Origin: Actinobacteria bacterium IMCC26103
GTDB taxonomy: Bacteria; Actinomycetota; Actinomycetes; Nanopelagicales; Nanopelagicaceae
Direction: 5' to 3'
DNA length: 64,000 bases
Assembly: GCA_002284875.1 (NCBI GenBank)
Contig: CP015604.1
Span: 1,302,001-1,366,000 of the forward strand
Made by a program: the position numbers and the translations under genes
Shown here: in pieces, positions 46,885 to 57,204 of the stretch
Layout of the letters: each line of letters opens with the position of its first letter
Numbering within the stretch: the first letter of the stretch is position 1
The notes under the pieces: model-generated
Databases searched by the model: none
The model's input: the letters and a program-made list of their open reading frames with translations, nothing else
Told to the model about the DNA's origin: nothing

Positions 46885-47616
46885 TTAAACTCTCTCCACA
46901 ATCGGCAGGCTACGCAGCCCACGTTCTAGATGCCATTGTAAGTACGCAATAACTAAACCACTAGCCTCGCGCCGATTACGAGGCTCACTTGCCTGCGCAA
47001 TATCCCAATCACCGCTTAACAGCGCACCTAACAATTCGAGAGTCTCAGGGGCAGGTGTTGCACATGCTGATGGTCGGCAATCTGCGCAAACTGATCCGCC
47101 GCCGACTAGCGAGAAGTAACGGTGCGGTCCTTCCTTTTCACAACGCGAACAATTTGAAGTAGATGGCGCATAACCACCAATTGCAAGGGAGCGAAGTAAG
47201 AAGGCATCCAAAATAAGCGATGCGTCATAACGGCTTTCAGCCAGCGCTTTCATGCCGCCGACAACTAGCTGAAACTCTTGCAGCGCAGGTTCATATTCTT
47301 GCGAGGTAAATCGCTCGGCAGTTTCTAAGATCGCAGATGCAATTGTCCAGCGCTGATAATCCTCAGTTAACGCTTCGCCATAATTATTGATCGCTTCGAC
47401 TTGAGTAATAGTGTCGAAGGTGCGGCCTTTATGTAATTGGATATCAACGTGGCTACCAGGCTCTAAACGCGCACCAAATTTAGACATCGTGCGGCGTACA
47501 CCTTTAGCGACTCCGCGCACGCGACCATGTTCGCGGGTTAGTAATGTGATGATGCGATCTGCTTCACCCAGCTTTTGGGTACGCAAGATAATTGCTTCGT
47601 CACGATAAAGGCTCAC
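46885..47616 (-). CDS. recO: DNA repair protein RecO
   Basis: A recombination mediator that helps load RecA on SSB-coated DNA with RecR. The 243-residue protein has the N-terminal OB-fold (YRDEAIILRTQKLGEADRIITLLTREHGRV), a central helical domain and a zinc-finger-like segment (CSRCEKEG... CADCRPSA). It starts at GTG with TACCTT seven bases upstream (leaderless) and leads the recO-uppS pair, a common actinobacterial order after leuA. Confidence 0.93.
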   Translation of the reverse strand: MSLYRDEAIILRTQKLGEADRIITLLTREHGRVRGVAKGVRRTMSKFGARLEPGSHVDIQLHKGRTFDTITQVEAINNYGEALTEDYQRWTIASAILETAERFTSQEYEPALQEFQLVVGGMKALAESRYDASLILDAFLLRSLAIGGYAPSTSNCSRCEKEGPHRYFSLVGGGSVCADCRPSACATPAPETLELLGALLSGDWDIAQASEPRNRREASGLVIAYLQWHLERGLRSLPIVERV

Positions 47617-47623
47617 GAAGGTA

Positions 47624-47629
47624 AAGGTA
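47624..47629 (-). promoter_or_regulatory. -10 element, leaderless promoter of recO-uppS
   Basis: Minus-strand TACCTT, seven bases (TACCTTC), then GTG 47616. The hexamer lies two bases outside the leuA stop. Confidence 0.5.
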
Positions 47630-47630
47630 G

Positions 47631-49370
<1,740 letters not shown>

Positions 49371-49379
49371 CTAAATTTT

Positions 49380-49430
49380 GGGTTTTGTCGGGTTTTACCG
49401 GTGCGACAAACCCCGCGGCGAGGGGACCGG
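49380..49430 (-). promoter_or_regulatory. Attenuator-like alternative stem-loops before leuA
   Basis: Stem B pairs 49380-49390 with 49404-49413 (GGGTTTGTCG with CGACAAAACCC) and ends about seven bases before the leuA ribosome site. Stem A pairs 49398-49402 with 49426-49430 (CCGGT with ACCGG), enclosing a CCCC/GGGG pairing (49411-49414 with 49422-49425), and begins right after the leader stop. They share bases 49411-49413, so they should compete. There is no T-run after stem B, so control may act on translation. Confidence 0.55.
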
Positions 49431-49431
49431 C

Positions 49432-49491
49432 TTACTTGGCCCCGCCACGGCAGCGAAGGAGGAGGCTGCGAAGTGTCACGGTTAAAGACAT
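49432..49491 (-). CDS. leuA leader peptide, 19 aa
   Basis: ATG 49491 to TAA 49432 encodes MSLTVTLRSLLLRCRGGAK. It has five leucines, three of them consecutive (CTC CTC CTT), then Arg-Cys-Arg-Gly. Leucine-rich leaders of this kind with an LLLR-type core precede leuA in other actinobacteria. A TACTAT hexamer stands six bases upstream, so transcription would begin at its ATG. Stalling at the leucine codons would bias the two downstream stem-loops. Confidence 0.72.
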   Translation of the reverse strand: MSLTVTLRSLLLRCRGGAK

Positions 49492-49497
49492 GGTGAA

Positions 49498-49503
49498 ATA
49501 GTA
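49498..49503 (-). promoter_or_regulatory. -10 element, leaderless promoter of the leuA leader
   Basis: Minus-strand TACTAT, six bases (TTCACC), then the leader ATG. Confidence 0.55.
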
Positions 49504-49544
49504 ACGCGCAGCCTTACTTATGAGCAAGTGGAGTTGAAACTGAG

Positions 49545-50498
49545 TTAGAAAATGTGAATCTGCTCCATGACTTCCATAATTTTCACAGTTTCAGCAAGGC
49601 TCAAGATTGGGCTTTCGGTAAGGCCCTTGGCGATGCACTCTTCAACATGGATAGCTTGATATTGCATTCCGCGTCCATTTATCTTCTCTTCATATTTGCG
49701 TACCAACTTATGTTGGCTGTCATAAATAGTAAATGTGGTCTGTTCAAAGAACCAGCCATCTATTTCAATTCGACCCTTTGTGCCGTGGATTGCCGCGTTA
49801 AGCGTTCCGGCCATAGTCATACAGGAATTAACTAAAGCCAAACTGCCATTGTTATATTGCAGAACTGCAGCAGTTGCCGAATCAACTCCGGTATCAGTCA
49901 TGATTGATTTTCCGCTGACTGAATCTGGAATTCCAAGAGTTCGGATCGCCATATGAATTGGATAAATACCTAAGTCATAATGTGCACCGCCGCCTTGCTC
50001 GCGATTCCAAAGTCGGGGCGCTCTTTCAATTGGTAAGTACTGGCTGTGATCGGCATATACAAAATGTGGAGTTCCGATTTCGCCAGCTTCAATTGCGGCA
50101 AAGACGGCGTTCATAGTTGGCAAGAAGCGAGTCCACATCGCTTCCATAACAAATACTTTTTTGCGCTTTGCGGCAGCATAGATTTCATGCGCATCTGCAG
50201 CGTTCATGGTGAAAGGCTTTTCTAGAAGTACATGCTTACCTGCTTCGATGGCAAGCAGGGCATGGTCGCGGTGCAGCGTCTGCACAGTTGATATATAAAT
50301 AACATCTACTTCAGGATCTGCCACCAGAGATGCGTAATCAGGATGGCGATTTGGGATATTAAATTGATCAGCAAAAGCGTTGGTGCGTTCCATGTCGCGC
50401 GTAGCAACGGCTTGGATTTTTAGCCCAGCATGACCAAAATCTGCTGCGATGATCTTGGCAATTCCGCCTGCTCCTAAATAACCCCAACGAAGTGCCAT
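49545..50498 (-). CDS. Gfo/Idh/MocA oxidoreductase
   Basis: A 317-residue dehydrogenase: WGYLGAGGIAKIIAADF (Rossmann), LEKPFTMNAADAHE (catalytic Lys), MEAMWTRFLPTMNAV, and the GGGAHYDLGIYPIHMA motif. It resembles the dimeric-dihydrodiol/1,5-anhydro-sugar dehydrogenase subgroup and is closest to the paralogue at 26821. It has a good AGGAGAG ribosome site. It follows heliorhodopsin by 43 bases, partly tandem repeats, and could be read from that transcript. Confidence 0.83.
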   Translation of the reverse strand: MALRWGYLGAGGIAKIIAADFGHAGLKIQAVATRDMERTNAFADQFNIPNRHPDYASLVADPEVDVIYISTVQTLHRDHALLAIEAGKHVLLEKPFTMNAADAHEIYAAAKRKKVFVMEAMWTRFLPTMNAVFAAIEAGEIGTPHFVYADHSQYLPIERAPRLWNREQGGGAHYDLGIYPIHMAIRTLGIPDSVSGKSIMTDTGVDSATAAVLQYNNGSLALVNSCMTMAGTLNAAIHGTKGRIEIDGWFFEQTTFTIYDSQHKLVRKYEEKINGRGMQYQAIHVEECIAKGLTESPILSLAETVKIMEVMEQIHIF

Positions 50499-50517
50499 GA
50501 CTCTCCTTATTTCTTAA

Positions 50518-50547
50518 ATGGAAATTAATTATGGAAATTAATTATGG
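50518..50547. repeat. Two and a half copies of a 13-base tandem repeat
   Basis: ATGGAAATTAATT occurs at 50518-50530 and 50531-50543, with a partial third copy at 50544. It covers the stop codon of heliorhodopsin and the spacer to the next gene. Confidence 0.85.
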
Positions 50548-51303
50548 AATAAGTGTATTGGCGAATATCTGCCAAGCAAGTAGCGATTTCGCAACAAGGG
50601 ATAGCGTTATATAGGTGCGCTCTCCCCGTAGATAATCAGCCCATTTGCCAACTTTCTTGTATTGCAAGTATTGAACGAGTGCGAATGAGTTAAAGAGGAT
50701 GAAAATCGTAAAGACGATGAAGTAGACAAAAGTAGGCGCTTTATTCTCGCCGGCTCCGCCTATGGCAAAGACATAGAAGACCAGCGCAAGCCAAGGAACG
50801 ATGCCGGCGATACAGCCGAAGATAAATGGCACCCAGCCACCATTGCCAGGTTCTTCATATTTCTCTTGCAGCCATCCAAATAAAATCATGGAAGCGTTGA
50901 CGCCAAAGATGGAAATCAAGGCGGTGATATCTGAAATTCCAGTTATCTGTGCAATCAGAACGATCATTACGGAAGAGCTGATTGAATATTCAACCCAACG
51001 GAAGAAGTTTCGGTGTGCAGCAAGTCCTGCGATATAGCGAGGGAAGAATTTTGGGCTAATGACAACAAAATGAGCAAGCGATGAAAGCCCCAAGAAAATT
51101 GCAACACCGATTGCAAGTGGTGCGTTGTACAAAATAATTAGATCACCGTATGTGCTTCCAGGAGGGCCGGACATGTATCGCGCAGTTATTGGTAAAGTGA
51201 AATCTGTTGCCAAGGCAAGAACTGCCACCATCTGTGCCAGGTGAAGAACGCCGGCGATTAAATTGATGCGGCGCAAACCGCTATCGGTAATCTCTTTAGC
51301 CAT
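50542..51303 (-). CDS. Heliorhodopsin
   Basis: A 253-residue seven-helix retinal protein of the heliorhodopsin family, which has inverted topology (N-terminus inside) and does not pump ions in known members. Hallmarks are FRWVEYSISSSVMIVLIAQ with counterion E105, VNASMILFGWLQEKY, FNSFALVQYLQY, and YITLSLVAKSLLAWQIF with Schiff-base K239. H21 and H78 match the two inner histidines of the family type protein. It is leaderless by a TACTTT hexamer overlapping the arm of a stem-loop after glnA. Its neighbour is a glutamine synthetase; binding of such a synthetase by an actinobacterial heliorhodopsin has been reported, as I recall. Confidence 0.95.
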   Translation of the reverse strand: MAKEITDSGLRRINLIAGVLHLAQMVAVLALATDFTLPITARYMSGPPGSTYGDLIILYNAPLAIGVAIFLGLSSLAHFVVISPKFFPRYIAGLAAHRNFFRWVEYSISSSVMIVLIAQITGISDITALISIFGVNASMILFGWLQEKYEEPGNGGWVPFIFGCIAGIVPWLALVFYVFAIGGAGENKAPTFVYFIVFTIFILFNSFALVQYLQYKKVGKWADYLRGERTYITLSLVAKSLLAWQIFANTLIP

Positions 51304-51309
51304 ACCAAT

Positions 51310-51315
51310 AAAGTA
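51310..51315 (-). promoter_or_regulatory. -10 element, leaderless promoter of heliorhodopsin
   Basis: Minus-strand TACTTT, six bases (ATTGGT), then ATG 51303. It immediately follows the stem-loop after glnA. Confidence 0.55.
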
Positions 51316-51331
51316 GCAGCCAAAGGCTGCT
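51310..51331 (-). terminator. Stem-loop between glnA and heliorhodopsin
   Basis: AGCAGCC and GGCTGCT pair perfectly around a TTT loop (51315-51331), followed on the minus strand by ACTTTATT. It may terminate glnA transcripts, while its T-rich tail forms the heliorhodopsin -10 element. Confidence 0.5.
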
Positions 51332-51339
51332 TTACCCCG

Positions 51340-52653
51340 TTAAAGAACTGGCAAATACCGATCTAATTCGTAGGCGCTTACCTGGCGGCGGTAGTCCTGC
51401 CATTCGACGCGCTTATTGCGTAGAACATATTCAAAGACGTGCTCGCCCAAAGTCTCACGTACGAGTTCGCTCTTCTCCATAACCGCAATCGCTTCATCGA
51501 GGTTGGCCGGCAGCGAAGCAGGAGCTGCATCATCGGTGAGCTCATATTTTTCTTCAATTCCTTTAAGGCCAGCTGCCAACATAACTGCATATGCCAGATA
51601 TGGATTGCAGGCCGAATCCGGAGAACGGAATTCAATTCGCGTTGAGTTCTCTTTATTTGGTTTATACATCGGAATACGCACTAAAGCGCTGCGATTGTTA
51701 TGGCCCCAGTTAATTAAAGCTGGCGCTTCTCCACCGCCTTGCAGGCGCTTGTAAGAGTTAACCCATTGATTTGTTACCGCAGTAATTTCAGATGAGTGCT
51801 TCAAAATGCCAGCGATAAATGAGCGCGCCACTTTCGATAAATTAAATTCGGCAGATGCATCATAGAAAGCATTCTTCTCGCCTTCAAATAAAGATACGTG
51901 GGTATGCATACCGCTGCCCGGGTGATCAGTAAATGGCTTTGGCATAAAGGAGGCGTAGAAACCTTGTTCTAGCGCCACTTCTTTAATCACATGGCGAAAG
52001 GTCATGATGTTATCTGCGGTGCTTAAAGCATCGGCATAACGTAGATCAATTTCTTGCTGACCAGGTGCTCCTTCATGATGGCTAAATTCAACCGAGATTC
52101 CCATTGCTTCCAGCATCGTGATCGCTTGGCGCCGAAAGTCATGTCCCACAACTGCTGGCGTGTGATCGAAATACCCACCTTGATCAACTGGAATCGGTTG
52201 TTCGCCTTTTACGGGAGCTGATTTAAATAAGAAGAATTCAATTTCCGGATGGGTGTAACAGGTGTAACCCATCTGCGCTGCCTTATTTAAAGTACGGCGC
52301 AATACATTGCGGGGATCGGCATGCGATGGTGAACCATCTGGCATCGTAATATCGCAGAACATACGAGCCGCCCCTGGTGATTCAGTACGCCAAGGCAGAA
52401 TAGAAAATGTTGCAGGGTCCGGTTTTGCCAACATATCTGATTCGGTAACGCGCGCAAAACCTTCAATCGCCGAACCATCAAAACCAATACCTTCTTCAAA
52501 GGCATTGACTAATTCCGCAGGTGCGATCGCAACTGATTTGAGATAACCCAAGACATCGGTAAACCACAATCGGATAAAGCGAATATTGCGCTCTTCAATT
52601 GTGCGCAGCACAAACTCTTGCTGCTTGCTCATTTGTGAATCGTTAGCGGACAT
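51340..52653 (-). CDS. Type I glutamine synthetase, GlnA2-like
   Basis: Makes glutamine from glutamate and ammonia with ATP. From ATG 52653 it is 437 aa; the ATG at 52662 is also possible. I prefer 52653 because CAAGAT lies seven bases upstream. Motifs are WFTDVLGYLKSVAI, IGFDGSAIEGFARV, HHEGAPGQQEIDLRYADAL, GMHTHVSLF, NRSALVRIP and EFRSPDSACNPYLA. The YxKQQEFVLRTIEERNIRFIRLW-type start and absence of an NLYxLPPE adenylylation loop point to the GlnA2 class, not the adenylylated GlnA1. Heliorhodopsin follows 36 bases later. Confidence 0.92.
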   Translation of the reverse strand: MSANDSQMSKQQEFVLRTIEERNIRFIRLWFTDVLGYLKSVAIAPAELVNAFEEGIGFDGSAIEGFARVTESDMLAKPDPATFSILPWRTESPGAARMFCDITMPDGSPSHADPRNVLRRTLNKAAQMGYTCYTHPEIEFFLFKSAPVKGEQPIPVDQGGYFDHTPAVVGHDFRRQAITMLEAMGISVEFSHHEGAPGQQEIDLRYADALSTADNIMTFRHVIKEVALEQGFYASFMPKPFTDHPGSGMHTHVSLFEGEKNAFYDASAEFNLSKVARSFIAGILKHSSEITAVTNQWVNSYKRLQGGGEAPALINWGHNNRSALVRIPMYKPNKENSTRIEFRSPDSACNPYLAYAVMLAAGLKGIEEKYELTDDAAPASLPANLDEAIAVMEKSELVRETLGEHVFEYVLRNKRVEWQDYRRQVSAYELDRYLPVL

Positions 52654-52696
52654 AGCCCACATCTTGCCAAGGCCAAGTTACGGCTGTGTTACAAAC

Positions 52697-54361
52697 CTAT
52701 TCGCTCCAGCGGCTCGTCATTGGTAAGCGGCGATCCTTACCGAATGCCCGCTTAGAAACCTTGGTGCCCGGTGGATATTGGCGGCGCTTGTATTCGGCCT
52801 TATCGACCATGGCAATTACGCGTCGGACCAGCGCTTCGTCAAAACCCGCGGCAATCAACGCAGCGGAACCTTGATCATCATCGACATAAGCAGTTAAGAC
52901 GTGATCTAGTAATAGGTAATCAGGAAGTGAATCAGAATCTTTCTGATCAGGGCGCAGTTCCGCACTTGGTTCTTTCTCAATTGAGTTAACTGGAATTGGT
53001 TCGGCTTCACCACGAGTGCGCGCCAGTTCATTGCGCCAACGAGATAAGGCCCAGACATCGGTCTTATAAATATCTTTAATTGGCGCAAAGCCACCCACGG
53101 CATCGCCATAAAGCGTGGAATAACCAACGGCTAGCTCTGATTTATTGCCAGTTGCTAAAACTAAGTGGCCCTCTTGATTTGAGATACCCATCAAAGTTGT
53201 GCCGCGAACGCGCGCCTGCAAGTTTTCTTCAGCTAAACCCTTCAAAGTTAAATTAGCCATATAGGCATCTACCATCGGCGCAATTGGCACGGTGCGAAAG
53301 TGAATACCTGTGGCATCGGCCAGCGCTTGCGCATCAGAGATCGAATGGCTAGATGAATATTTACTTGGCATGGCAACGCCATTTACACACTTGGCGCCAA
53401 TTGCATCAATAGCAATCGCCGCAACCAGTGCAGAATCGATGCCACCTGATAAACCAACGACAACGCTTCGGAAACCATTCTTTTCTACATAATCTCTCAA
53501 ACCAATTACCAAGGCTTGCCAAATTTCTTCGCGGTCATCTAGGCGAATGGCGACCCCTGAAATTAAGGTGCGCTCGATCTGGGCTTCATCTTCTGAGATA
53601 ACTACATCTGGTGTGCTGGTCTTGGTGGCCACATCGATATCTACAATTGCGATGCCATCTTCAAATTGTGGTGCGCGCGCAATGACTGCGCCATCTGCAC
53701 CAACGACAATGCTGTCGCCATCAAAGACCAGATCATCTTGGCCGCCGGTCATATTGACATAGACCAGCGGTGCTTGTGCCTGGCGAGCGCGCTTGGTTAC
53801 CAAAGCAAGCCGCACATCATCTTTGGCGCGTTCATACGGTGATCCATTAGGAACAATAACTAAGCCGGGTTTACGCGCGGCAAGCTGGGCTGTAATTCCG
53901 CCATCGATCCAGAGATCTTCACAAATTGCGATACCAACATCAACGCCATTGATGCGAACGACCAGTGTCTTATCCCCCGGAACAAAGTTACGAAATTCAT
54001 CGAAGACGCCGTAATTAGGCAAATGGCATTTGGCATAACGCGCCTTGATCACACCGCCAGAAATTACCGCCACCATATTTTGTGGAGCGCCATCGACTTG
54101 GCCAAGGTAGCCAACGATTGCGACAGTTTCACCAGTTAGCTCACCAGCTAATTGGGCGATCGCCTTTTGGCTAGCAGCTTGGAAAGATGGGCGCAGCGCT
54201 AAATCTTCTACGGGATATCCAGTTAAAACCATTTCGGGAAAGACGACGATATGTGCGCCGGCGTCTTGAGCGCTGGCAAAGTTCTCGCGCACCAAGGCAG
54301 CATTGGCTGCCAGGTCACCGACAGTCGGGTTGACCTGCGCCAGCGCTATGCGCAACTTCAT
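52697..54361 (-). CDS. nadE: Glutamine-dependent NAD+ synthetase NadE
   Basis: Last step of NAD synthesis: amidates deamido-NAD using ammonia from glutamine. The 554-residue two-domain enzyme has an N-terminal nitrilase/glutaminase part (VVFPEMVLTGYPVEDL, YAKCHLPNYGVFDE, GIAICEDLWI with Glu, Lys, Cys triad) and a C-terminal ligase (VVGLSGGIDSALVAAIA, GNKSELAVGYSTLYGD). It lies just upstream of glnA, whose product supplies glutamine. TACTCT six bases before the ATG indicates a leaderless transcript; the hexamer is inside an inverted repeat. Confidence 0.95.
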   Translation of the reverse strand: MKLRIALAQVNPTVGDLAANAALVRENFASAQDAGAHIVVFPEMVLTGYPVEDLALRPSFQAASQKAIAQLAGELTGETVAIVGYLGQVDGAPQNMVAVISGGVIKARYAKCHLPNYGVFDEFRNFVPGDKTLVVRINGVDVGIAICEDLWIDGGITAQLAARKPGLVIVPNGSPYERAKDDVRLALVTKRARQAQAPLVYVNMTGGQDDLVFDGDSIVVGADGAVIARAPQFEDGIAIVDIDVATKTSTPDVVISEDEAQIERTLISGVAIRLDDREEIWQALVIGLRDYVEKNGFRSVVVGLSGGIDSALVAAIAIDAIGAKCVNGVAMPSKYSSSHSISDAQALADATGIHFRTVPIAPMVDAYMANLTLKGLAEENLQARVRGTTLMGISNQEGHLVLATGNKSELAVGYSTLYGDAVGGFAPIKDIYKTDVWALSRWRNELARTRGEAEPIPVNSIEKEPSAELRPDQKDSDSLPDYLLLDHVLTAYVDDDQGSAALIAAGFDEALVRRVIAMVDKAEYKRRQYPPGTKVSKRAFGKDRRLPMTSRWSE

Positions 54362-54367
54362 ACTTCA

Positions 54368-54390
54368 AGAGTAATGGAATACGATTACTC
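54368..54390. promoter_or_regulatory. Inverted repeat over the nadE -10 element
   Basis: GAGTAAT (54369-54375) and ATTACTC (54384-54390) form a perfect seven-base inverted repeat with an eight-base spacer. The left arm overlaps the minus-strand -10 TACTCT (54368-54373). A repressor bound here would block nadE and could also affect panB. Confidence 0.5.
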
Positions 54391-54452
54391 CAAGAACCCT
54401 CAATAGATAAGACCCGGAGACTTCTCGCGAAGCTTCGAGGCTGGAGGAAAGA

Positions 54453-55286
54453 ATGTCACCAAAATCTGGAACTACAACGACCCTTTATGGCGGTGCCTCC
54501 CATCGCCGCGTCACGATCGTCGATCTCAAAGCGGCCAAGGTCGCTGGCGAAAAGTGGGCAGCCCTTACTTCGTATGAGCAGATGACCGCTGAGATATTTG
54601 ATCAGGCCGGCATCCCGGTGTTGTTAGTTGGCGATAGCGCCGGCAACAACTTTCTCGGTGGCGAAAATACGATCGCCGTTACCGTCGATGAATTAATACC
54701 TCTTACCCGCGCGGTGGTTCGCGCCTCAAAGCGCGCCCTGGTGATCGCTGATCTGCCCTTTGGTTCATATGAAAATTCACCTGAACAAGCACTTGCCACA
54801 TCAACTCGCTTCTTTAAGGAAGCTGGCGCAATGGCCGTTAAATTAGAAGGCGCACATTTAGCAACAGTTGAAAAGTTAACCGCTGCCGGAATTCCAGTTA
54901 TGGGCCACCTAGGCCTTACCCCGCAATCACTTCATCAACTCGGTGGCTATCGCGTGCAAGGTCGCGAAGATGGCGATGCCATTTTGGCTGCGGCCATAGC
55001 GTTAGAAAAGGCGGGCGCCTTTGCCATTGTTCTCGAGCTAGTTCCAGCAGAACTGGCTGCGCGAATTACCGATGCCCTTTCTATTCCAACTGTTGGAATC
55101 GGGGCGGGAGTTAACTGTGATGCCCAGATTTTAGTTTGGACCGATTTAGTCGGGCTAACTGCCAAGCCACCGAAATTAGCTAAGGTCTATCGCAACCTGC
55201 GCCAAGAGATAACGGGTGCTGCCGAAGAATTCGCTCGCGATGTGCGTGGGGGAACTTTCCCTGGGCCTGAAAATACTTTTAACTAG
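54453..55286 (+). CDS. panB: 3-methyl-2-oxobutanoate hydroxymethyltransferase PanB
   Basis: First step of pantothenate synthesis: adds a hydroxymethyl group from methylene-THF to 2-oxoisovalerate. The 277-residue TIM barrel has ALTSYEQMTAEIFDQAGIPVLLVGDSAGN, DLPFGSYE, AVKLEGAH, GIPVMGHLGLTPQS and GIGAGVNCDAQILVW. GGAGGAAAG is a strong ribosome site. It is divergent from nadE, bringing two cofactor pathways under one promoter region. 2-Oxoisovalerate is also the LeuA substrate. Confidence 0.95.
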   Translation: MSPKSGTTTTLYGGASHRRVTIVDLKAAKVAGEKWAALTSYEQMTAEIFDQAGIPVLLVGDSAGNNFLGGENTIAVTVDELIPLTRAVVRASKRALVIADLPFGSYENSPEQALATSTRFFKEAGAMAVKLEGAHLATVEKLTAAGIPVMGHLGLTPQSLHQLGGYRVQGREDGDAILAAAIALEKAGAFAIVLELVPAELAARITDALSIPTVGIGAGVNCDAQILVWTDLVGLTAKPPKLAKVYRNLRQEITGAAEEFARDVRGGTFPGPENTFN

Positions 55287-55291
55287 TTCCC

Positions 55292-56611
55292 GTGGTGGAT
55301 AAAGGGCAATCAAAGAGATCTCGCTTTGCTATAGATCTAACCCCACTAAAGAAATACCCGGATTTTCGCAATTTGTGGGCATCGGGGCTAATTACCTATC
55401 TCGGTTCGATGATCACCTATGTCGCCGTCCCTTTCCAAATCAAAGAGCTAACCAATTCATATATAGCCGTGGGCCTATCGGGTGTAATCGAGATCGTGCC
55501 GCTAATCCTCTTTGGTTTATATGGCGGAGTCTTAGCCGATTATGTCGACCGTAAGAAGATGGTTTGGGCGACCGAGTTCGCCTCCCTTACCTTGGTAGCG
55601 ATCTTGTTGGTTAACTCATTTCTACCTAACCCACATCTAGTGCTTATCTATGTAGTCATCGGATTTTTTGCCGCAGTCAATGGTCTGCAACGCCCTAGCG
55701 CCGATGCCATCTTGCCGAGATTGGTTGGCCATGCCGATCTGCCAGCGGCCAGCGCCTTGATGAGTCTGCGTTGGCAGGTCGGTGTAATCATCGGGCCAAC
55801 TATTGGTGGAATTTTAATTTCCACCTTTTCAATTTCAGTTGGTTACATCGCAGATATCGCAACCTTCTTAATTTCACTTGCACTTCTGGCCCGCGTTCGA
55901 AATGTGCCGGCTAGCCCAGAGGCGGAAAAGCCATCTCTGGCAGGGTTATTACAGGGTGTGCGCTATGCCTTTAACCGCCAAGATTTATTGGGAACTTATC
56001 TAATTGATTTAGCGGCGATGTTCTTTGCGATGCCAACTGCGCTAATTCCATTCTGGGCAGATCAACTTGGTAAGCCTTGGGCCCTGGGATTTTTATATGC
56101 CGCAGGTACGGTCGGTTCAATTGCCGTAACTCTGACAAGTGGTTGGACTAAGCACTACCCATTCCATGGTCGCGCCGTTATCTGGGCCGCCCTCGGATGG
56201 GGCGCAGCTATCGCTCTGGCCGGAACTTTTCACTCACTGATATTTGTACTGCTCTTCCTTGCTCTGGCCGGGGCGGCCGACATGGTCAGTGCGCTATTTC
56301 GCGGCAACATTTGGAACCAGACCATCCCCGATGAATTCCGCGGCCGACTGGCGGGTATCGAACTACTTTCATATTCAGTTGGCCCATTAGCCGGACAGAT
56401 GCGCGCGGCATCGATGGCGGCAGTTACTAGCCTGAATTTCTCGGTAACTTTCGGCGGGGTTCTGTGCATACTTTCTGTGGCGATTTTGGCGCTATTTTTA
56501 CCAAAATTCCGAAAATACGATGTCGAAACCAACGAATTCGCCGTTCAAATGCGGAAAATTCGCGCCGAAAGTGAAATTTCGCCAGAAAGCGCCTCAGATT
56601 TAGAAAAGTGA
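55292..56611 (+). CDS. MFS transporter (EntS-like exporter group)
   Basis: A 439-residue major-facilitator protein with 12 hydrophobic helices. The N-terminal YPDFRNLWASGLITYLGSMIT and YGGVLADYVDRKKMV (loop 2-3 motif) resemble the EntS/TMS-type exporters. The motif GNIWNQTIPDEFRGRLAGIELL in the second half is also typical of that group. The substrate is unknown. It starts at GTG 55292 (or 55295), five bases after panB. The tail is charged and cytoplasmic. Confidence 0.85.
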   Translation: MVDKGQSKRSRFAIDLTPLKKYPDFRNLWASGLITYLGSMITYVAVPFQIKELTNSYIAVGLSGVIEIVPLILFGLYGGVLADYVDRKKMVWATEFASLTLVAILLVNSFLPNPHLVLIYVVIGFFAAVNGLQRPSADAILPRLVGHADLPAASALMSLRWQVGVIIGPTIGGILISTFSISVGYIADIATFLISLALLARVRNVPASPEAEKPSLAGLLQGVRYAFNRQDLLGTYLIDLAAMFFAMPTALIPFWADQLGKPWALGFLYAAGTVGSIAVTLTSGWTKHYPFHGRAVIWAALGWGAAIALAGTFHSLIFVLLFLALAGAADMVSALFRGNIWNQTIPDEFRGRLAGIELLSYSVGPLAGQMRAASMAAVTSLNFSVTFGGVLCILSVAILALFLPKFRKYDVETNEFAVQMRKIRAESEISPESASDLEK

Positions 56612-56632
56612 ATCCAAAATTGAGAGTTTTTC

Positions 56633-56666
56633 CCGAAATTTCGGTAATCGAAATCCTTGATTTTTT
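56633..56666 (+). terminator. Possible terminator after the MFS gene
   Basis: A perfect 12-base palindrome CCGAAATTTCGG (56633-56644) is followed by AAATC-CTT-GATTT (56651-56663) and a short T-run. The combined structure could end transcription; the stems are weak. Confidence 0.35.
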
Positions 56667-56750
56667 CTTAAATGCACAAAAATATTAAAAAATAAATTGC
56701 GACACGCACTGCGTTTTTTCTCACTATGTACTAGCAATATTTTTATATTT

Positions 56751-56786
56751 CCGTCACACTTATCCACGAACAGGTTTGGGTGACGG
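56751..56786 (+). promoter_or_regulatory. Inverted repeat in the leader of the histone-like gene
   Basis: CCGTCAC (56751-56757) and GTGACGG (56780-56786) are perfect seven-base arms around a 22-base loop, 29 bases before the GTG start. An AGGAG ribosome site follows at 56804-56808. The arms could be an operator or an RNA hairpin. Confidence 0.45.
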
Positions 56787-56814
56787 ATCCGAACCATTCC
56801 GATAGGAGAAGTAC

Positions 56815-57204
56815 GTGGCCGCAGCTAAGAAAGCAGCACCAAAGAAGCGTCGCAAGAAGGCAGCAGCTCCAGCAGCAGCTCCAAAGAAGCGCCGCAAGAA
56901 GGCAGCAGCAAAGAAGGCAGCTCCAAAGCGTCGCAAGAAGGCAGCAGCTAAGAAGGCAGCTCCAAAGCGTCGCAAGAAGGCAGCAGCTAAGAAGGCAGCT
57001 CCAAAGCGTCGTCGCAAGAAGGCAGCAGCTAAGAAGGCAGCTCCAAAGCGTCGTCGCAAGAAGGCAGCAGCTAAGAAGGCAGCTCCAAAGCGTCGCAAGA
57101 AGGCAGCAGCTAAGAAGGCAGCTCCAAAGCGTCGTCGCAAGAAGGCAGCAGCTCCAGCAGCAGCTCCAAAGAAGCGCCGTCGCAAGAAGGCAGCAGCTAA
57201 GTAA
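56815..57204 (+). CDS. Histone H1-like Ala/Lys/Arg/Pro repeat protein
   Basis: A 129-residue strongly basic protein built only from Ala, Lys, Arg, Pro and the initiator Met. It consists of about nine units of 13-15 residues (AAAKKAAPKRRKK with variants). The second and the second-last units use AAAPAAAPKK. There is no globular domain, no acidic and no aromatic residue. Such tails resemble eukaryotic H1 C-termini and bacterial H1-like or HupB-tail proteins, and should bind nucleic acid by charge, compacting DNA. It starts at GTG with AGGAG upstream and ends in a strong terminator. Confidence 0.85.
   Translation: MAAAKKAAPKKRRKKAAAPAAAPKKRRKKAAAKKAAPKRRKKAAAKKAAPKRRKKAAAKKAAPKRRRKKAAAKKAAPKRRRKKAAAKKAAPKRRKKAAAKKAAPKRRRKKAAAPAAAPKKRRRKKAAAK
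56860..57175 (+). repeat. Tandem 39-42 base coding repeats in the histone-like gene
   Basis: Nearly identical units of the type AAGAAGGCAGCAGC...CCAAAGCGTCGC recur in frame. Length variants differ by one CGT codon (RR versus RRR). The near-identity of synonymous positions suggests recent unit duplication or gene conversion. Confidence 0.85.

Follow-up and report, generated by a model that had tools for sequence, protein, structure and literature searches.

Locus and Match to a Published Gene Pair

The AbHeR-AbGS pair is among the few worked cases of heliorhodopsin function. In the 64,000 bp stretch of the genome of Actinobacteria bacterium IMCC26103 analyzed here (the window, GC-content 47.3%), a heliorhodopsin gene lies directly behind a gene for a GlnA2-type glutamine synthetase (GS)-like enzyme, an observation made in an earlier sequence-only reading and confirmed as a whole. 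The coordinates of the features are given in Table 1.

The locus was compared with the pair described by Cho et al. 2022 (PMC9529153; this and the other papers are cited from the available parts of their texts). All 23 compared heliorhodopsin residues numbered in that paper are identical, and, with the GS counted from the third in-frame ATG, D52, A55, Y154, P238 and E302 coincide with the published residues (5/5). The longest start of the GS open frame is at 52662; the start taken in the sequence-only reading, 52653, is codon 4, and the published numbering points to codon 11, at 52632. The gene set around the heliorhodopsin (panB, NAD synthetase, GS, Gfo/Idh/MocA oxidoreductase and leuA) also agrees with the publication, as does the count of three GS genes in the genome. 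Since residues, gene order and GS gene count agree, we infer that the locus is the AbHeR-AbGS pair of IMCC26103. With the same residue at every compared position and the same gene order, the present description differs from the available published one in two respects: the partner is read here as GlnA2 and there as a classical GS, and a heliorhodopsin promoter box is found here, whereas a single operon promoter is given there.

The report mentioned in the sequence-only reading, that an actinobacterial heliorhodopsin binds and modulates a neighboring GS, is genuine (PMC9529153) and concerns the very locus matched by the window. The order nadE-glnA2-heliorhodopsin, which had been offered as the new point, was already present in Cho 2022, Bulzu 2021 and a 2024 paper in Nat Commun. 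Bulzu et al. 2021 reported co-transcripts of heliorhodopsin with GS and NAD synthetase, and the trio of nadE, GS and heliorhodopsin was discussed again in Nat Commun 2024. The gene pair, its order and its co-transcripts are already known; new here are the GlnA2 class of the partner, the separate heliorhodopsin promoter box and the presence of two heliorhodopsin lineages at one spot. The OcHeR-OmrDE system (PMC11109279, available part) is similar in that a heliorhodopsin was reported to affect a protein encoded by the gene next to it, but its partner is an ABC transporter in the membrane and not a GS-like enzyme.

Table 1. Features of the heliorhodopsin locus (positions in the window).
Feature	Position	Strand	Remarks
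leuA	47631-49358	-	beyond the Gfo/Idh/MocA oxidoreductase gene
Gfo/Idh/MocA oxidoreductase	49545-50498	-	behind heliorhodopsin; found in some of the linked loci only
Heliorhodopsin (AbHeR of Cho et al. 2022)	50542-51303	-	253 aa; PF18761 and NF038020 above cut-offs
Lys239 codon, retinal Schiff-base lysine	50587-50589	-	invariant in 80/80 heliorhodopsins
Lys216 codon	50656-50658	-	reported critical for GS binding (PMC9529153, available part); invariant in linked and unlinked heliorhodopsins
Glu105 codon, counterion	50989-50991	-	invariant in 80/80 heliorhodopsins
TACTTT, -10 box of putative leaderless heliorhodopsin promoter	51310-51315	-	-12 to -7 before the ATG
GlnA2-class GS-like enzyme (AbGS)	51340-52632	-	430 aa from the start fitting the published numbering; PF00120/PF03951
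Pro238 codon (CCG), replacing Asn264 of true GS	51919-51921	-	alignment with E. coli GlnA
NAD+ synthetase nadE with amidase domain	52697-54361	-	NF010588, 681 bits; PF00795, PF02540
TACTCT, -10 box of putative leaderless nadE promoter	54368-54373	-	may also drive glnA2
panB	54453-55286	+	upstream of nadE

Heliorhodopsin Protein

The heliorhodopsin frame is covered over its full length by the family models: Pfam PF18761 scored 316.8 bits (cut-off 26.7) over positions 1-242 of 242, and NCBIfam NF038020 (HeR) scored 332.6 bits (cut-off 100). Both E105 and K239, noted earlier from the sequence, are present, and the distance of 36 bases from the GS stop (51340) to the heliorhodopsin ATG was found to be correct. 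For AbHeR, the topology was predicted and the absorption measured (PMC9529153). Residues K216, K217 and K220 were considered as a signature specific to GS partnership and ruled out, being equally invariant in GS-linked (30/30) and unlinked (50/50) proteins. The E151 column features E, Q or K in GS-linked heliorhodopsins and mostly T or N in unlinked ones. The E151Q variant of AbHeR was reported to bind GS more tightly (PMC9529153, available part); the difference between linked and unlinked proteins may be a lineage pattern. Some heliorhodopsin loci of Nanopelagicales type belong to MAGs titled Bifidobacterium breve or Streptomyces griseus (L008, L010, L038, L043, L063), and these titles are probably wrong.

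Class and Active Site of the Partner Enzyme

The GlnA2 class proposed for the partner in the sequence-only reading was borne out. All 118 searched genomes of the class (Actinomycetes) contain a close relative of the window enzyme, the best match in each having an E of 2.7e-186 or lower, and this relative is distinct from GlnA1. Outside the order Nanopelagicales, the best of the matches listed are 66-79% identical, followed by a gap down to GS-type matches of about 35-47%; the GlnA1 of the same genome is only 34% identical to the window enzyme.

Classical type I GSs carry Ser53 and Asn264 in the ammonium/glutamate site. In the alignment with E. coli GlnA, AbGS has neither, possessing Ala55 and Pro238 at these positions, while both residues are kept in all four aligned GlnA1-type enzymes (those of E. 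coli, IMCC26103 itself, L152 and L153). The separate GlnA1 of the genome has 19 of the 19 compared active-site residues. In a wider alignment, with 62 of its 65 lettered rows from the order and a gap in the 66th row, the Asn264 column contains Pro in 64 rows and Ala in one. The replacement extends to the 11 aligned class genomes outside the order (Pro in 10, Ala in 1); Ser53, in turn, is kept in three of ten aligned class GlnA2s (L152, L153 and L158). The glutamate-putrescine ligase PuuA of E. coli has Ala at both positions. The Tyr397 position is occupied by Trp in 10/10 class members and falls in a gap in nine Nanopelagicales rows, where the loop is shortened and the alignment is ambiguous.

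A known system close to the window enzyme is GlnA2 of Streptomyces coelicolor (PMC8998196, available part), reported as a gamma-glutamylpolyamine synthetase that makes gamma-glutamylputrescine, with a Km(Glu) of 1.06 mM. Its activity with ammonium was reported only at unphysiological levels, and it cannot replace GS in vivo. The residues printed for it are Asp150, Pro238 and Glu310. The window enzyme shares the replacement of Asn264 by Pro238, Asp150 is a further listed likeness, and the enzyme is about 70% identical to the 453 aa class GlnA2s of L150 and L161, which carry D150, P238 and E310. The differences are the shorter loop near the Tyr397 position in the Nanopelagicales enzymes and the lack of a heliorhodopsin beside class GlnA2s in the loci read. 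Two printed details do not fit the alignment obtained here: residue 55 is given as Glu, whereas the class members have Ala or Ser, and Asp150 is set against Tyr179, where residue 154 (Tyr154) is placed here. Column 372 of GlnA2, mostly polar in heliorhodopsin-linked and mostly aliphatic in unlinked enzymes, was tried as a linkage signature and dropped: it was the best pick of all scored columns, class outgroups are polar too, and three independent pairs gave a median p of 0.5 in the sign test.

Substrate and Light Regulation

The published kinetics of AbGS with ammonium are poor: its kcat/Km is 5.4 per M per s, whereas reported GSs reach 900-28,000 per M per s, and its Km(Glu) is 27 mM (PMC9529153, available part, as are the following data). 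An E. coli glnA knockout grew slowly with AbGS and glutamate, so some glutamine synthesis by the enzyme is real; the authors had themselves pointed out that an enzyme without this Asn might catalyze a different reaction. The reported effects of AbHeR are small: 1.1-fold more product in light, a kcat/Km rising from 8.0 (dark) to 12.2 (light) per M per s, and a Kd of 6.06 ± 5.44 µM. No independent replication of this regulation was noticed in the open-licence literature, judged by titles and the starts of abstracts.

As published, the heliorhodopsin would be a light-dependent activator of a genuine, weak GS and hence of ammonium assimilation, an account we regard as somewhat unlikely. It draws on ITC, a Pi-release assay and the partial complementation of E. 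coli (PMC9529153), and the genome gave no match to the GS adenylyltransferase GlnE despite its full GlnA1 (3 of 14 control genomes matched), so that GS may be free of adenylylation control. The replaced Asn264 and Ser53, the very low kcat/Km and the presence of a full GlnA1 in the genome speak against it. AbGS does score just above the cut-off of the NCBIfam type I GlnA model TIGR00653 (440.9 against 429.15), but the class GlnA2 of L150 passes as well (442.4), so the model does not separate GlnA2 from GlnA.

The interpretation that we favor, and hold to be slightly more probable than not, is that the locus is the published AbHeR-AbGS pair with a GlnA2 whose substrate is likelier an organic amine, and that light tunes amine glutamylation. 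It builds on the match to the published pair, the sequence class, the promoter boxes and the linkage of two heliorhodopsin lineages, and extends by inference to transcription, substrate and physiological role. The heliorhodopsin would be a non-pumping retinal receptor in the membrane that uses its cytoplasmic loop 3 to dock GlnA2 and causes a mild increase in the catalytic efficiency of the enzyme, larger in light, as was published for the pair. The enzyme itself is the actinobacterial GlnA2 with an altered ammonium site (Asn264 to Pro, Ser53 to Ala), and because of that alteration its true substrate would more likely be an organic amine, for example putrescine or cadaverine, than ammonium. 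Given the membership in the GlnA2 class, the poor ammonium kinetics and the lost Asn, an amine is a reasonable first guess for the substrate of AbGS; the conserved GlnA2 features together with the S. coelicolor residues suggest that the light-regulated reaction may be amine glutamylation, which light would tune at the membrane. Should AbGS prove to be a gamma-glutamyl-amine ligase, the second substrate offered in the published assay was a poor one; the small response to light seen there may then be the tail end of a stronger effect, and the role assigned to AbGS may need retesting.

The light-responsive nitrogen-assimilation module of the sequence-only reading fared unevenly. The reported interaction of heliorhodopsin with GS, the GlnA2 class and the promoter box stood; the novelty of the gene order and the inclusion of nadE did not. 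Nitrogen assimilation is doubtful in the sense of ammonium to glutamine, in a group lacking Asn264 whose Streptomyces member was reported as a gamma-glutamylpolyamine synthetase. Searches of the open-licence literature returned nothing that joins heliorhodopsin with GlnA2, or gamma-glutamyl or polyamine with Nanopelagicales; for heliorhodopsin with polyamine, none of the papers dealt with a GS, as judged from titles and the openings of abstracts. Kang et al. (available part) list spermidine/putrescine transporters for all four of their acI strains.

A third GS-like gene of the same genome lies beside genes for an amino-acid permease, a short-chain dehydrogenase and an aldehyde dehydrogenase. 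The cluster (L159, 7062-14943; about 843,000-851,000 in the genome of IMCC26103) also includes Fe-ADH and glutamine amidotransferase-type genes, and a weak PuuD-family match was found close by, at 843314. This cluster is possibly a gamma-glutamyl-amine pathway; the third GS-like gene may encode the main amine ligase and could do that work alone. This gene and the partial complementation of the E. coli knockout speak against an amine role of AbGS, as do the two misfitting residues of S. coelicolor GlnA2 and the Ser53 kept in three class GlnA2s. The lysines invariant whatever the linkage, the small published effects and the adjacency in only 22 of 72 order genomes with both genes, contig breaks aside, weigh against the favored interpretation as well.

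Promoters and Transcription

The sequence-only reading had assigned the heliorhodopsin a leaderless promoter of its own, and a separate, conserved box was indeed found. A TAnnnT motif stands at -12/-13 before the heliorhodopsin ATG in 73 of 80 loci (30/30 GS-linked and 43/50 unlinked), compared with at most 6/80 at offsets clear of the box. The TACTTT of the window is by itself a motif only, and the sigma-70 scan did not list it; it is the conservation of the box across the 80 loci that marks it as a putative promoter element. A search of the open-licence literature for heliorhodopsin with leaderless gave no result.

Among linked loci, the box also precedes nadE wherever the start could be scored (20/20) and is absent before glnA2 (0/28), leuA (0/9) and mocA (0/12); counts below 30 leave out loci where the gene is lacking or truncated or the match does not start at the first residue. 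This distribution, with boxes before nadE and heliorhodopsin and none before glnA2, suggests that glnA2 probably relies on the nadE promoter, while the heliorhodopsin probably has its own and would be expressed partly by read-through. A single-promoter operon would have no promoter between GS and heliorhodopsin, whereas the box is conserved there in all 30 linked loci, as judged from sequence. The box thereby seems to qualify the published single-promoter model, and the reported co-transcripts suggest read-through.

A terminator between glnA2 and heliorhodopsin was considered and rejected: one 7-pair stem is present at 51315-51331, its left arm is not conserved in relatives, and stem sites in the scanned stretch are no commoner than in shuffled sequences (5 found, 6.1 expected). 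Rfam at gathering thresholds gave no match in 47000-57000. The block GGCTG(C/T)TACTTTATTGG at 51305-51321 of the reverse strand, just before the heliorhodopsin, shows a conservation among close relatives that is not confined to the -10 box.

Distribution and Repeated Association

GS is located directly upstream in 30 of the 80 nearest heliorhodopsin loci (the best 80 of 304, some with short flanks); the other 50 lack it there. Among 112 genomes of the order with a completeness of at least 90%, heliorhodopsin was found in 76 (with a few partial matches), GS in 101 and both in 72. The two genes are adjacent in at least 22 of these 72, contig breaks making the count a lower bound, and all 22 belong to the genus of the window (22/45). 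In each of them heliorhodopsin and GS are on the same strand with match ends less than 500 bp apart, and nadE lies less than 200 bp from GS. The order nadE-GS-heliorhodopsin is accordingly shared by relatives within one genus, and, contig breaks aside, it was not seen in the other 50 of the 72 genomes with both genes.

In the heliorhodopsin tree, the GS-linked proteins form two separated groups, each with unlinked kin, and their union in a single clade was rejected (AU p 0.0026). In the tree of host genes (GS, NadE and LeuA; 66 rows, ten under half filled, a quick search in which several deep forks lack support), the two heliorhodopsin types are interleaved, and a single clade was rejected at p 0.0004 for type A, at p about 1e-33 for type B and at p about 1e-76 for the two combined. 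Two histories can account for this: repeated arrival of heliorhodopsin at the spot, or replacement of one type by the other in place, possibly by recombination within the flanks they share. Each of them accords better with selection for the pairing than with a single accidental insertion, and the presence of two heliorhodopsin lineages in the same position suggests that the association is selected.

The adjacency might instead reflect a favorable landing place, with an independently transcribed heliorhodopsin sensing light for something else and a weak or fortuitous interaction with GS. The leaderless box in linked and unlinked loci alike and the GS-binding lysines, invariant whatever the linkage, are consistent with this, as is the lack of adjacency in 50 of the 80 nearest loci and 50 of the 72 order genomes with both genes. 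Other membrane proteins occupy the same spot as well: an HlyIII-family protein (L147, 1340-1984) and a DUF4389 protein (L145, 7071-7664) are encoded directly behind glnA2 on the same strand, in one genome each of two other genera. However, two heliorhodopsin lineages sit behind the same gene, on the same strand and within 500 bp, in all 22 linked order genomes, and binding and co-transcripts have been published (PMC9529153; Bulzu 2021; available parts). We rate the landing-place account as unlikely.

Returning to a light-tuned GlnA2, a bolder version can be put forward as a tentative idea, short of an even chance: the two lineages were recruited or swapped into the position after glnA2 because the enzyme they gate is a gamma-glutamyl-amine ligase and not a GS, and light at the membrane would direct the glutamylation of imported amines for nitrogen and carbon.

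Relation of nadE to the Pair

The sequence-only reading had drawn nadE, as a glutamine user, into the heliorhodopsin module, and a metabolic module whose NAD synthesis under light would be supplied with glutamine by GS has been proposed in print (PMC9529153; Nat Commun 2024; available parts). The position of nadE in all 22 linked order genomes agrees with such a module, but the wider class does not. Of the 107 class genomes outside the order, 73 contain a match to nadE (E 1e-40), the remaining 34 being uninformative on proximity. In 70 of the 73, nadE and glnA2 are no more than 15 kb apart and on opposite strands (no more than 300 bp apart in 42), and in the other three nadE is on another contig. 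No heliorhodopsin was found beside class GlnA2 in 29 loci of 26 genomes (flanks mostly 1.5 kb, ten longer). With nadE near glnA2 in most nadE-matched genomes and no heliorhodopsin there, the nadE-glnA2 proximity appears to be older than the heliorhodopsin link. As nadE also has a promoter box of its own, the NAD module is very improbable, and nadE is probably an old neighbor, not part of heliorhodopsin function. The separate promoter box and the old nadE-glnA2 proximity are a warning against inferring function from 'operon' membership alone.

In many relatives without GS-heliorhodopsin linkage, cysK-like and cysE-like genes are located between nadE and glnA2. In L142 (3713-5155) and L145 (4246-5679), with heliorhodopsin elsewhere, a PALP-family enzyme (cysK-like) occupies this position together with a second small gene, in L142 a cysE-like hexapeptide transferase; the linked loci listed gave no cysK-like match.

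On the forward strand of the window, positions 56815-57204 encode a lysine/alanine/arginine-repeat protein in a region where open frames overlap on both strands. We presume a resemblance to histone H1-like tails. Similar repeats were observed near the ends of L148 and L149.
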